Shown in pieces: positions 4,983-21,175 of a DNA stretch of 35,551 nucleotides. The DNA comes from Bryobacteraceae bacterium (GTDB taxonomy: Bacteria; Acidobacteriota; Terriglobia; Bryobacterales; Bryobacteraceae), in contig JASHOO010000640.1 of the NCBI GenBank assembly GCA_030041035.1, positions 1 to 35,551 on the forward strand, given 5' to 3'. Position 1 is the stretch's first letter; each line of letters starts with the position of its first letter. The position numbers were made by a program, and so were the translations under genes. Below the pieces are notes generated by a model. It was not told the origin of the DNA, ran no database searches, and worked only from the letters and a program-made list of their open reading frames with translations.

Positions 4983-7900
4983 ATGGCCGACACGCGCAGA
5001 GCCTTTTTAAGAATCGGCGCCGGGGGCGCCATCGCTTCGGTTCTTGGCTTCGATCTCCAGCCCGCCTACGCGCAATCAAAGGAATTGAAAATCGCGCGCA
5101 CCACCGAGACGCGGTCGACTTGCCCGTATTGTTCGGTGAGCTGCGGTGTGATCATTCATACACTCGGCGACAAAGCCAAGAACGTCACCCCACAGGTGGT
5201 GCACGTGGAGGGCGATCCGGATCACCCCATCAACCGTGGCACGCTCTGCCCCAAGGGATCGTCGCTGATGCAGGACATCCTGAACGAGCGCCGCCTGCTC
5301 AAACCGCAGGTGCGCCGGCCGGGATCGGATCATTGGGAAGACATCGGCTGGGATCAGGCCATCGATGAGATTGCCCGTCGCATCAAGAAAACCCGCGACG
5401 AGACGTTCATCGAGAGGGATGCACAGGGCCGCACGGTGAACCGCTGCGAAGGCATCGCCTGGAACGGTGGTTGCACGGATACCAACGAATTCAATTATCT
5501 GGTTGTCAAGAGCATGCGCAGCCTGGGGGTCTGCTACCTGGAAAACCAGGCCCGCGTTTGACACGGCCCCACGGTCTCCAGTTTGGGGCCCACATTCGGA
5601 CGCGGTGCGATGACCAACGGCTGGATCGACATCAAGAACACCGACATGATGTTGATCATGGGTGGGAATCCGGCCGAGAACCACCCTTGCGGCTTCAAGT
5701 GGCCGATCGAGGCCAAGCGCAATCGCAACGCCAAGATGATCGTGGTGGATCCGCGGTTCACGCGCACCGCGGCGACAGCGGATCTGTTTGTGCAGTTGCG
5801 CACCGGTACGGACATTGCGTTCTTGGGCGGCCTCATCCGCTACGTGATGGAGAACAACCGCATTGCGAAGGATTATCTCGTTCAATACACCAATGCCGCG
5901 TTCATTGTGCGAAAAGGTTTCAAGCTGCCGGAAGACGGCCTCTATTCCGGTTTCGATGCGGCCACCCACACCTACGACAAAGCCACCTGGAATTACGAAG
6001 AGGGCGGTGATCTCAAAGGCAAGCCGGATACGCCGGGTGATGGCGCGCCATCGGCGAATCCGCCGGCGCTGCCCGCGGATGTGGCTTACGATCTCACGCT
6101 CGAGCATCCACGTACGGTGTTCCAGTTGCTGCGGAAACATTTTTCCCGTTACACACCCGAGATGGTCGAGCGCATCACCGGCGTTCCCAAGGATCAATTT
6201 CTGAAAGCCGCGGATCTGTTCACTTCCATCCGCAAAGACGGCGACACCAAAAAAGTCGGGACGATCATCTATGCCGTCGGCTGGACGCAGCACAGTTCCG
6301 GCACACAGACGATTCGCACCGCAGCGATGCTGCAACTGCTGCTCGGCAACGTCGGCCGCGCCGGCGGCGGAGTCAACGCGTTGCGCGGGCACTCAAATAT
6401 TCAAGGCGCTACCGACATGGCCGGCGTTTTCGATCTGCTGCCGGGTTATTTGAAAGTCCCCACAATGGCGGATGTCGATCTCAAAACCTACCTGACCCGC
6501 ATCACGCCGAAAGCCGCCAAACCCGGTCCGTGGAATTCCTTCAATTACTGGTCGAACACGCCGAAATTCGCCGTGTCTCTATTGAAAGCATTATATGGCG
6601 AACACGCCAGAAAAGAGAACGACTGGGCGTTTCATTACCTCCCCAAGATCGACCGCCGCTATTCCTGGGCCGAAATCTGGGACGACATGTATCGCGGTCA
6701 CGTCAAAGGCCTGCTCGCCTTCGGCATGAACGGCGTGGCCATTGGCCCGAACTCGTCCAAAAACATCGACGCGCTGAAGAAGGCCGACTGGCTCGTAGTG
6801 TGCGAGATCTATCCCGACGAAACCAGCGAGTTCTGGAAATCTCCCGGCATCACGACGGACGAAATGAAGCAGATCCAGACGACGGTTTATCGCCTGCCCG
6901 GCGCGGGTTTCGCCGAAAAAGACGGTACATTTGTGAACTCGGCACGCTGGCTGCAATGGAAGAACGCCGCACTACCGCCGCCCGGATTGGCCAGACTCGA
7001 TCAGGAAATCCTGGCGCGCATTTTCCTGAAAGTCCGCGAGCTCTACCAGAAAGAAGGCGGCAAGTTCCCCGACCCGGTTCTGCACGCCACGTGGAACTAC
7101 ACCGATCCACACAACCCGTCGCTCGCCGAGATCGCGAAGGAGATCAACGGCCGCGCGCTCGCCGACGTCACCGATCCCAAGCTGAATCAGACCATCAAGG
7201 CCGGACAACAACTGCCTGGATTCGCATGGCTCCGCGACGACGGCTCGACCTCCAGCGGCAACTGGATTTTTTGCGGCTCCTGGACCGAAGCCGGCGCGCA
7301 GATCCAACGGCGCGGCACTGAAGATCCGTCCGGTCTCGGCATTTATCCGAACTGGGCGTGGTCGTGGCCCGCCAATCGGCGCGTGTTGTACAACCGGGCG
7401 TCGTGCGATCTCTCCGGAAAGCCCTGGGATCCTGACCGCGCGCAGGTCTGGTGGAACGAAGCGCAGCAGAAGTGGGTCGGCAACGACGTGCCCGATTTCA
7501 AACCGGATTCGCCGCCCAAGGATCACATGGGACCGTTCATCATGAATCCCGAGGGCATCGGACGTCTCTTCGTACCGCTCGCCGGCATGGCGGACGGGCC
7601 GTTCCCCGAGCACTACGAGCCGACCGAGAGTCCCATCGACAATCCGCTCCATCCGCAGCAGACGCACAATCCGCTGGCGAAGCGATTTTCGACGCCGCTC
7701 GATAAGTTCGGCTCACCAGCCGAAGGCTACAACATCATTTGCACCACGTACCGGCTGACCGAGCATTACCACTACTGGACCAAGAACAATCCTATGAATG
7801 TGCAGTTGGTGCCCGAGCCATTTGTGGAAATTCCCGCGGAGTTGGCCGACGAAATGGGACTGCGCGGCGGTGAAAAGATCAAAGTAACCAGCGCCCGTGG

Positions 7901-8129
7901 CCACTATCTCGCCAAGGCTATGGTCACGCGCCGCATCAAATCGATGATAGTGGACGGGAAGAAGACATATCAGATCGGCATTCCGATTCACTGGGGCTAT
8001 CGCGGCATCGCCGAGGACGCAGGCAAAACCGGATTGACCACCGCCAACCAGCTCTCGCCGGCCGTCACCGACCCCAACGCCTACACGCCCGAATTCAAGG
8101 GCTTTCTGGTGAAGATCGAGAGGGCGTGA
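4983..8129 (+). CDS. fdnG: Formate dehydrogenase-N major subunit, selenocysteine-containing (UGA at 5559-5561 read as Sec, codon 193)
   Basis: Track ORFs 4983..5561 and 5583..8129 are in one frame across a single TGA: ...YLENQARV-U-HGPTVSSLGPTFGRGAMTNGWIDIKN..., matching the FdnG motif NQARVUHGPTVASLAPTFGRGAMTN. Tat signal TRRAFLRIG; 4Fe-4S motif CPYCSVSCGV. Confidence 0.95.
5559..5605 (+). promoter_or_regulatory. Bacterial SECIS element in fdnG
   Basis: Directly 3' of the UGA: GGTCTC (5573-5578), loop CAGTTT, GGGGCC (5585-5590). An alternative 7-bp stem GGCCCCA (5565-5571)/TGGGGCC (5584-5590) is also possible. Position matches the E. coli fdnG/fdhF SECIS. Confidence 0.72.
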
Positions 8130-8130
8130 G

Positions 8131-9015
8131 ATGAGCAACGGACCGCTCGAAATCAAAGCCATCTCCGGTCACGCCGGACCCGTTCCCGGCCGCGACACCT
8201 CACGCGATTACGACGTCTGCAAACTGGTTGATGTCACTACCTGTATCGGCTGCAAGGCCTGTGAAGTCGCCTGCCTCGAGTGGAACGGTTACCCGTTTCG
8301 CGAAACGGTTTTCGATAACACCTATCAAACCATGCCCGATCTGGCATGGAATTACTACAACCTGATCCGCTTTAACGAACACACCGCTAGTGACGGAACT
8401 TTCAGCTGGCTCATGCGCAAGGACCAATGCATGCACTGCGCCGACCCGGGTTGCCTGCGCGCCTGCCCGGCCGATGGCGCTATTGTGCAATACGCCAACG
8501 GCATCGTCGATTTTCAGCAGGAGAACTGCATCGGTTGCCAGTATTGCGTCACCGGCTGCCCGTTCAACATTCCCAAATTCAATCCGGAAACCAAGAAAGT
8601 TCACAAGTGCACATTGTGTTCGGATCGCGTGGGCGTAGGCCTGGAACCGGCGTGCATCAAGGCGTGTCCTACCGGCTGCCTCCATTTCGGCAGCAAGGAC
8701 GACATGAAAGACCTCGCCGGGCGCCGTGCCCAGCAGTTGCGCGAACACACCGCGCACACCAATGCGGGAGTTTACGACCCTCCGGGCGTCGGAGGCACGC
8801 ACGTCATCTACGTCCTGCACGACATCAGCAATCCCGAAGCCTATGGCGGTCTGCCCGCCAATCCGCGCGTGCCATGGACGGTGAAGCTGTGGAAGGGACC
8901 ACTGAAGTGGCTCGGGAATCTCGCGATGTTTGGCGGCTTGCTTGGTGTGACCTTGCATTACCTCCGTTTCGGCCCGAAACAAGTCAAAGAAGACCATGCG
9001 GAGGGCAAGTCATGA
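8131..9015 (+). CDS. fdnH: Formate dehydrogenase-N iron-sulfur (beta) subunit
   Basis: Multiple 4Fe-4S clusters (CIGCKACEVACLEWN, CMHCADPGCLRACPADGA, CIGCQYCVTGCPFNIPKF, CTLCSDRVGVGLEPACIKACPTGCL) and a C-terminal TM helix. Confidence 0.95.
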   Translation: MSNGPLEIKAISGHAGPVPGRDTSRDYDVCKLVDVTTCIGCKACEVACLEWNGYPFRETVFDNTYQTMPDLAWNYYNLIRFNEHTASDGTFSWLMRKDQCMHCADPGCLRACPADGAIVQYANGIVDFQQENCIGCQYCVTGCPFNIPKFNPETKKVHKCTLCSDRVGVGLEPACIKACPTGCLHFGSKDDMKDLAGRRAQQLREHTAHTNAGVYDPPGVGGTHVIYVLHDISNPEAYGGLPANPRVPWTVKLWKGPLKWLGNLAMFGGLLGVTLHYLRFGPKQVKEDHAEGKS

Positions 9016-18933: not shown

Positions 18934-19227
18934 ATGGCAAACCCGAAATACAAGGTATCCGATAAGGCGATTCCGGTCTCCGAGCTGGTCGAGACGCTGA
19001 GCGACGGTACTAAAGTGAAGCGGCGGATTCCGCGCATGCGCGCTTGCAGCGAAAAGGACGACAAGGGCAAACTATGCGCCGGGCATCTGAAACGCTGGTA
19101 TTTCTTCGGGGATGAAGTGAAGCGAAAGTACGGCGCCGACGCCGAGATTTACCGTTGTGAGCACTGCAAGACGCTGTACCTGCCGAATTTGGAGGAGGAG
19201 CCGCGCACCCGAACCCTGGCCTGGTAG
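18934..19227 (+). CDS. Small hypothetical protein with possible zinc-binding Cys residues
   Basis: 97 aa; RACSEKDDKGKLCAGHLKRWYFFGDEVKRKYG...YRCEHCKTLYLPN. Confidence 0.75.
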   Translation: MANPKYKVSDKAIPVSELVETLSDGTKVKRRIPRMRACSEKDDKGKLCAGHLKRWYFFGDEVKRKYGADAEIYRCEHCKTLYLPNLEEEPRTRTLAW

Positions 19228-19242
19228 ACAAGGCCCGAAAAT

Positions 19243-19296
19243 AGAAAAACCGCACCAGAGTCGCTCCAGACCTTCTTGAGCTGGCCCCAGTGCGGT
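19243..19296 (-). terminator. Rho-independent terminator on the minus strand
   Basis: Minus strand ACCGCAC (19296-19290)...GTGCGGT (19255-19249) with a nested CCA-GCUC/GAGC-UGG helix, then TTTTCTATTTTC. No T-run on the other side, so orientation is minus. Confidence 0.6.
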
Positions 19297-19312
19297 CCGC
19301 CCATGTTGAGCT

Positions 19313-19427
19313 GGGATCCGGCAGCGGGTCAACTGGATTTACCCGCTTTTCCCTTCCATTCCTGGCGAGGTCCGCGTCCGATTTTCCTACACCAGCAACG
19401 CCAGCCAACTACCGCAACCCAGATCCC
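19313..19427 (-). ncRNA. Second candidate structured RNA segment, upstream of the intrinsic terminator
   Basis: Long-range 9-bp helix GGGAUCUGG (19427-19419)/CCGGAUCCC (19321-19313) with an internal hairpin GCGGGT/ACCCGC (19346-19341/19329-19324). No clear own promoter seen. Confidence 0.28.
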
Positions 19428-19449
19428 GGGAGAGAAGTTAAAAAAGCTG

Positions 19450-19612
19450 AGAAAAAAACCCCTCTGTTGCAACCAGCAAACGACTTCATCGCGAGCGTCC
19501 TACTACTACAAAACATCGAGCTCCCGCAAGCACGTTGTTCTCTCTCGCCCGCTTTGGCCTCGCCTGCCTGTTGCAGCAGAGGGCAGGTTTACAAGTTACT
19601 TCGCCAATTCAA
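19450..19612 (-). ncRNA. Candidate structured small RNA, possibly 6S-like
   Basis: Minus-strand arms 19560-19583 (5' arm) and 19460-19483 (3' arm) pair over ~22 bp with one mismatch and one small internal loop, enclosing ~76 nt. Followed by T7 (19458-19452). Preceded by TTGACA-N17-TATTTC. Confidence 0.5.
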
Positions 19613-19616
19613 CAAA

Positions 19617-19645
19617 GAAATAGCAACCTCGCAGCCAACTGTCAA
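19617..19645 (-). promoter_or_regulatory. Sigma70-like promoter reading toward lower coordinates
   Basis: Minus strand: TTGACA (19645-19640), 17-nt spacer, TATTTC (19622-19617). Confidence 0.5.
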
Positions 19646-19747
19646 TGGCTGTAAGACATTGATTTTGCGAGGTGCAAGTTGCGGCGCAGCTTGGTCAAGG
19701 TGCGGCGTGTGGTCCCGGGCTGTGGCGCTATGACACAATCGGAATTC

Positions 19748-21175
19748 ATGTTCCGATGGGTATCCCTGGTGTTGATTGTCCTTTTTCTACCGATTCTGGC
19801 AGCGCAGACCGAGGAGGAGAGTTTCCGGGTGTACGCCGACCATCCCCGGCTGCTGTTAATCCCGCACCGCCTGCAACTGCTGCGCAAGGAACGCGACCGG
19901 CACTCGGTTCGCTGGCAGCAATTCGAGCTGTTGATGGCGGGCCATGCACCCATGCCGGAGCCGGGCTTCGCCGGAGCCCTGTATTACAAAGTAGCCGGCA
20001 ATGAGGCCGCTGGACGGGCGGCTGTCAGCTGGGCGCTTGGGGCGGCATCCGACCTGCGCCAGCTTGCACTGGTGTTCGACTGGTGCCAGGAACTGCTGTC
20101 GCCGGCGCAATCCCACGCGCTCGCCGGAAAACTGGCCCGAGGCATCGAGCAGCCTCTGCGCAACAGCTCCGTGACCTTGATGCGCGGGCGAGTGCTGGCC
20201 GCGGTCGCGCTTGCCGATCACCAGCAGGATCTCTCTGAGCGCGAGCTGAGACGCGTGGTCCAGGGTTGGTGGAGGGGTGAGATCGCGCCCGCGCTCCAAG
20301 GTGGACGCAATGTGATCTCGCGCGACGATCTCTATGCGCTCTATGAGATGCTGCACGCCATTCGTGACAATCTGGATATCGACCTGCGTGAATCCGCCGT
20401 GCCATATTTCAAGGCGCTACCGATCTACGACCTGGTGAGCTATTACCCGGCCGCATATCCGGCACCTGAAAACGAATATCGGATTCCGTGCACCAAGGGC
20501 GCCGGAGAACCAGACGTCAACCGCGCGGCTATGGCGCGGGCAGCCGAGTTGGCGATGGTGCCCTATGACGCCAATGCTCCCGAAAGCCAGCTCCTGCAAG
20601 GCTGGCTGATGCACGACAATTTCATCCTGCGCAGCACGCTTGGCGCGCCATACGAGTTTCTGTGGGCCAATCCGTATCATCCCGGCCTCGCCTACTACCT
20701 GGCGCCGCTGGTGTTCCATGATGATCTATTTGGACGGCTGTTCGTGCGGTCGAGCTGGGACGACGCCGCGCGATGGCTGGGATATTTCGACGGAGAGCTG
20801 CAATTATTTGAAAACGGGAGCGTCACCGTACTGAACCCCGCGCTCGCCAGCGAGCCGATGTCGCTCGACACAGCCGTAGTGCTCTTTGGCAAAAAAGCGG
20901 AGAAGTTCCAGACCATCCTTAATGAGGACGAGGAAGTGTTCGTTCTGGGCCTGAAGCCGCACCACACCTACCAGATCGAGGTAGACGATGAGGAGATGAC
21001 CGAGGCCAAGACCGACACTGGCGGCATTCTCGAGCTGAAGCTGCCGCACAAGGTGCAAATCGGGGTCCGGCTGCGCGAGGCGCAGCCCATAGCGCCGGAT
21101 CCAGCCAAGCTTCCTCCACGAGCGAGCCGTGCTCACCCGGCGTCAATTTTAAATCAAGTTGTCATCGGCTCGTGA
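19748..21175 (+). CDS. Secreted heparinase II/III-like (alpha/alpha toroid) protein of unknown substrate
   Basis: MFRWVSLVLIVLFLPILAAQTEEE signal peptide; FRVYADHPRLLLIP N-terminus and a helical toroid-like region, then a beta-rich C-terminus. Start could also be ATG 19730. Confidence 0.6.
   Translation: MFRWVSLVLIVLFLPILAAQTEEESFRVYADHPRLLLIPHRLQLLRKERDRHSVRWQQFELLMAGHAPMPEPGFAGALYYKVAGNEAAGRAAVSWALGAASDLRQLALVFDWCQELLSPAQSHALAGKLARGIEQPLRNSSVTLMRGRVLAAVALADHQQDLSERELRRVVQGWWRGEIAPALQGGRNVISRDDLYALYEMLHAIRDNLDIDLRESAVPYFKALPIYDLVSYYPAAYPAPENEYRIPCTKGAGEPDVNRAAMARAAELAMVPYDANAPESQLLQGWLMHDNFILRSTLGAPYEFLWANPYHPGLAYYLAPLVFHDDLFGRLFVRSSWDDAARWLGYFDGELQLFENGSVTVLNPALASEPMSLDTAVVLFGKKAEKFQTILNEDEEVFVLGLKPHHTYQIEVDDEEMTEAKTDTGGILELKLPHKVQIGVRLREAQPIAPDPAKLPPRASRAHPASILNQVVIGS

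Follow-up and report, generated by a model that had tools for sequence, protein, structure and literature searches.

The minus strand of the window, the whole 35,551-nucleotide stretch of Bryobacteraceae DNA analysed here, carries what, on comparison with its homologues, is a real and previously uncatalogued small RNA gene. It is probable that its product, of ~160 nt, is a trans-acting regulatory sRNA and the main output of a dedicated Bryobacteraceae two-component system. The RNA gene and its neighbours are laid out as follows.

19452 to 19612, minus strand: the RNA, as matched by covariance model R1 (133.9 bits), from family conservation and covariation
19584 to 19610, minus strand: conserved 5' leader GAAUUGGCGAAGUAAC...AAACCUG, with near-invariant GAAUUG and AACCUG
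19577 to 19583, minus strand: closing helix P1, 5' strand CCCUCUG, invariant in 94 primary copies
19460 to 19466, minus strand: closing helix P1, 3' strand CAGAGGG, from fold and covariation
19513 to 19538, minus strand: apical hairpin ACAACGUGCUUGCGGGAGCUCGAUGU with near-invariant CGUGCUUGCGGGAG, from fold and conservation
19452 to 19466, minus strand: intrinsic terminator made of the end of the closing helix and seven T, from letters and conservation
18934 to 19227, plus strand: convergent 97-aa gene downstream of the RNA, homologue in 49/100 loci, no Pfam match
19748 to 21175, plus strand: divergent gene for a secreted-looking protein of ~475 aa, start beside the putative enhancer, divergent homologue in 86/100 loci, no Pfam match

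The RNA is predicted to start at about 19611-19610 and to end within the T-run 19458-19452 of the minus strand. One G and then these seven T stand directly 3' of CAGAGGG (19466-19460), in agreement with the 3' U-tract noticed in the original prediction. The proposal that a structured RNA of ~160 nt stands here on its own is likewise supported by conservation, covariation, the terminator and a promoter at fixed distance. A cis-acting leader was rejected since the next downstream gene (18934-19227) is convergent to the RNA, and a conserved open reading frame in place of the RNA was set aside because the homologues carry indels of varied length while their base pairs covary.

Folded alone, the minus strand from 19610 to 19450 reaches -62.3 kcal/mol (z = -3.42), an energy matched by one of 200 dinucleotide shuffles, and the median fold z over 99 homologues is -4.1. 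The predicted fold is a single rod composed of a closing helix, a middle helix and the apical hairpin ACAACGUGCUUGCGGGAGCUCGAUGU, with G and the seven T directly 3' of the rod. The closing helix counts 7 + 6 + 9 base pairs with two 1x1 mismatches; the pairing of CCCTCTG (from 19583) with CAGAGGG (19466-19460) was therefore rightly described at the outset, whereas the single mismatch and 2x2 loop described with it were not recovered. In the same way, an open centre of ~76 nt had been supposed, where the fold gives a second helix and the conserved apical hairpin instead.

In the alignment of 99 homologues, 90.5% of the cells in the named helices are paired, as opposed to 36-45% when the helices are slid, and 73 two-sided changes were counted in them against 25.4 +- 5.5 in shuffles, values that lean towards the modelled structure as the alignment was fitted to the covariance model; so read, the homologues support the closing helix. 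The middle helix is too variable for alignment. It is backed by an alignment-free test in which its arms were swapped: the modelled energy was -20.1 kcal/mol with the own partner and -15.9 +- 0.3 kcal/mol with the 3' arm of another sequence. Letter by letter, conservation is strongest in the 5' GAAUUG, in AACCUGCCCUCUG, in the tip CGUGCUUGCGGGAG and in CAGAGGG with the T-run. By parts, the tip and closing helix are conserved best, and the middle helix is free to vary.

A blastn search with the region gave matches in 28 of 61 relatives, and covariance model R1 was built from 28 homologues with the promoter sequence left out. R1 matched 136 of 151 Bryobacteraceae genomes, which represent 69 of 73 genera. 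Of the second and third families in the order, the second gave a single matching genome and the third none; 396 genomes sampled from all over Acidobacteriota yielded no further match. In two genomes counted as negative, G151 and G157, fragments of the RNA are nonetheless present at its regular position, the one in G157 being broken by an assembly gap. When Rfam 15 was compared with 19220-19760 of the window (E <= 10), nothing was found beyond three implausible matches, and no match was obtained for 15 homologue loci (E <= 1). By this measure the RNA is a new family of conserved RNAs. The candidates Acido-1 and Acido-Lenti-1 (RF01686, RF01687) were described as non-coding RNAs from Acidobacteria (PMC2864571); their Rfam models are matched neither by the window copy nor by the 15 homologue loci.

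Five genomes (L084, L088, L092, L117, L125) contain a second RNA copy that keeps the sigma-54 box and lacks the palindrome discussed below, two of these copies being shortened to 120 and 137 nt. Contigs assigned to Planctomycetota (L238) and to Methanomicrobiales (L267) also carry full R1 matches, and a contig assigned to Arcobacter (L222) matches the search pattern; all three are probably misbinned Bryobacteraceae. As L238 and L267 look misbinned, members outside the Bryobacterales were rejected. Pattern matches in Ruminiclostridium, Halioglobus, Clostridia and Desulfovibrio were rejected too, since they do not fit the covariance model.

The RNA had first been taken for a 6S-like candidate, and a 6S-type RNA or 6S paralogue that binds RNA polymerase by mimicry of an open promoter would share with it the length class, the long closing helix, the 3' T-run and the standalone gene. 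On the contrary, the 6S model (RF00013) was matched neither in 19220-19760 of the window (E <= 10) nor in the 15 homologue loci (E <= 1). The search for another 6S locus was fruitful: the same genome has its own, separate 6S gene at G000:C364:3329-3529 (L001), which scores 48.5 bits with an Rfam cut-off of 46.4. Moreover, where 6S RNA has a large open bubble at its centre, flanked by two long helices, the centre here is paired, being made of a co-varying helix and the conserved hairpin. The promoter is also of another kind; enhancer control through sigma-54 is not known for 6S RNA. This identity is thus extremely unlikely, and judged from its letters and fold the window RNA is not 6S RNA.

Upstream of the RNA, four control elements were recognized.

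19622 to 19638, minus strand: sigma-54 -24/-12 promoter TTGG-N10-GCT (GG 19636-19635, GC 19624-19623), present in 99/99 homologues
19617 to 19645, minus strand: overlapping sigma-70-like TTGACA-17-TATTTC, lineage-restricted
19652 to 19664, minus strand: IHF-like site AATCAATGTCTTA (WATCAANNNNTTR), from enrichment over shuffles
19721 to 19737, minus strand: putative enhancer (UAS) palindrome TGTGTC-ATAGC-GCCACA, one mismatch to TGTGTC-N5-GACACA

In all 99 homologues GG-N10-GC lies at a fixed offset: it begins 22-26 nt ahead of the first position of the model, and in 96 of them 24 or 25 nt ahead. The T preceding GC is invariant (100/100 loci), though the search pattern left this position free, and in the same 100 loci a T is found before GG in 87% and after GC in 80%. 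These letters identify the element as a sigma-54 -24/-12 promoter universal to the RNA homologues; the box was found with a model that excluded promoter sequence. The original prediction had given the RNA its own promoter, which is of sigma-70 type by its letters. Its minus-strand coordinates were correct (TTGACA 19645-19640, a 17-nt spacer and TATTTC 19622-19617), and these letters, present in the window and its lineage, would suit a constitutive small RNA in which the sigma-54-like letters are incidental. Nevertheless, TTGACA occurs in 24/99 homologues against 99/99 for GG-N10-GC, and a helically phased UAS is present; we regard a constitutive RNA of this kind as very unlikely. In the TTGACA lineage, a dual promoter in which the sigma-70-like element overlaps the sigma-54 one is the more likely arrangement. 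Upstream of the promoter, an IHF-like site (at least 8/9 match) was seen in 41/100 loci and in 3.8% of shuffles, which kept base composition only.

The palindrome TGTGTC-N5-GACACA was detected with at most two mismatches in 95/100 loci, and all five loci without it are second copies. Its 6-N5-6 dyad resembles NtrC sites. Measured from its centre to GG, the spacing is 90-95 in 75 loci, 81-85 in 13, 71-72 in 3 and other in 4; the distance from UAS to -24 box thus peaks at ~93, 83 and 72 bp, that is, at whole helical turns. Because these steps amount to about one helical turn, the phased palindrome is read as a putative enhancer site, as expected for an activator that faces the polymerase. In four genomes the perfect TGTGTCANNNNGACACA occurs once each, at the RNA locus, while a fifth genome (G089) has one elsewhere.

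The palindrome could instead be the operator of the divergent secreted-protein gene and have nothing to do with activation of the RNA. It abuts or overlaps the likely start codon of that gene in most loci, and in G125, G174 and G119 similar palindromes precede further genes for secreted-looking proteins. Yet the palindrome stands off from the RNA's -24 box in steps of whole helical turns, and 9 loci with no detected divergent gene still have it, so that this alternative appears improbable. With the palindrome taken as an enhancer of the RNA, the regulator may also control the divergent gene, because this gene begins next to the enhancer and adjoins the RNA in 86/100 loci. As to the sites in G125, G174 and G119 (L418, L419, L420), they lie away from the RNA, with the TGTGTC-N5-GACACA-type palindrome directly upstream of the protein gene, which is divergent to a second gene; they are possibly a second target of the same regulator.

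The genome encodes rpoN (PF04552 match). Strong sigma-54 activators were compared between three RNA-positive genomes (G120, G160, G089) and three RNA-negative ones (G162, G075, G010), and reciprocal best matches among the former left exactly one activator missing from all of the latter. This candidate is a 437-450-aa REC-AAA-HTH_8 protein, an NtrC-type response regulator, and all of the 34 additional RNA-positive genomes tested have it. In the window's own genome the match is partial (residues 2-262 only), the gene being probably cut by a contig end. The activator is absent from g9, g62 and g80, genera without the RNA, although genomes negative for both belong to three genera only, so that independent losses are few. 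Conversely, in six genomes of the family, two of which are 97% complete, the activator is there without a detected RNA; it is also found in one genome of family f3, and two genomes with RNA fragments gave no full activator match. Directly upstream of the activator gene, 27 of 30 loci carry a gene for a CHASE2-HisKA-HATPase histidine kinase. Gene content and order thus argue strongly for a regulator pair made of the CHASE2 kinase and the NtrC-type activator. Several features that characterize a sigma-54-dependent sRNA gene are found here: a -24/-12 promoter, a phased palindrome, and rpoN with a candidate activator (partial in the window's assembly).

From these elements a course of events can be proposed. 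The CHASE2 histidine kinase would phosphorylate the NtrC-type activator, which would then bind TGTGTC-N5-GACACA; IHF-type bending would loop it onto sigma-54 RNA polymerase and transcription of the RNA would start, steps for which we infer a good likelihood. Further downstream, the RNA might act post-transcriptionally with Hfq, which is encoded in 7 of 7 genomes tested. It could do so through its leader AAACCUG, complementary to AGGU-type ribosome-binding sites, or else through the conserved tip or through protein sequestration in the manner of GlmY. Pairing with mRNA via the leader and sequestration of a protein via the tip have similar odds. A bolder reading, to which we give not quite even confidence, holds that a private pair of CHASE2 kinase and NtrC-type activator has the new RNA family as its only or principal target, the whole output of the pathway passing via one RNA that acts by protein- or mRNA-binding through tip and leader.

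GlmY sequesters a protein (GlmY/RapZ) and CsrB/CsrA exemplifies the decoy style. An RNA that is mainly such a protein decoy, with the tip CGUGCUUGCGGGAG as protein site and without mRNA pairing, would agree with a tip and closing helix that are the most conserved parts above a freely varying middle helix. However, the 5' leader outside the rod is conserved too, which a pure decoy would not need; we see here a sizeable possibility, if a minority one. Returning to a trans-acting RNA with leader and tip, pairing with the start region of the divergent gene was rejected, the energies being near those of swapped pairs: the leader did no better (-15.60 versus -15.63 +- 0.23) and the tip barely better, with no clear signal (-22.62 versus -22.17 +- 0.21).

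Qrr sRNAs (LuxO) and CrcZ (CbrB) are sigma-54-dependent sRNAs. They share with the window RNA the control of a regulatory RNA by response regulator and sigma-54, whereas their sequences and structures are unrelated to it as far as Rfam scans show. The nearest working parallel is GlmY under QseE/QseF (GlrK/GlrR) in Enterobacteriaceae, whose promoter layout is alike: a sigma-54 promoter, an NtrC-type response regulator on a palindromic upstream site and help from IHF (PMC6075780, PMC8745638). An overlapping sigma-70 promoter was also reported for glmY of Proteus mirabilis (PMC8745638). Nevertheless, no sequence relation of the window RNA to GlmY or GlmZ was detected (no Rfam match for the window copy and 15 loci), and the UAS here, TGTGTC-N5-GACACA, differs from the QseF consensus site TGTC-N10-GACA (PMC8745638). 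The present system is further distinguished by one long rod, a CHASE2-type kinase, a regulator gene elsewhere in the genome and its place in the Acidobacteriota.

In another part of the window, Rfam SECIS_3 was matched at 5556-5614 (71.4 bits) within the plus-strand frame 4983-8129, its start coinciding with a TGA in frame at 5559-5561. With this codon translated as selenocysteine, the frame gives a molybdopterin oxidoreductase of ~1049 aa. It is adjoined by 8131-9015, a 4Fe-4S subunit with a formate-dehydrogenase transmembrane domain, and together they likely form a selenocysteine formate dehydrogenase.

Acidobacteriota are one of the most abundant soil phyla, and no functionally studied regulatory RNA of this phylum was found in the open literature searched. 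The RNA would be a family-wide regulator with a named promoter class, an enhancer and a candidate regulator pair, each link of which is directly testable. Moreover, an unrelated RNA appears to have been placed under the same sigma-54, two-component and IHF control as enterobacterial GlmY, an apparent convergence in wiring which hints that this promoter logic suits RNA outputs.
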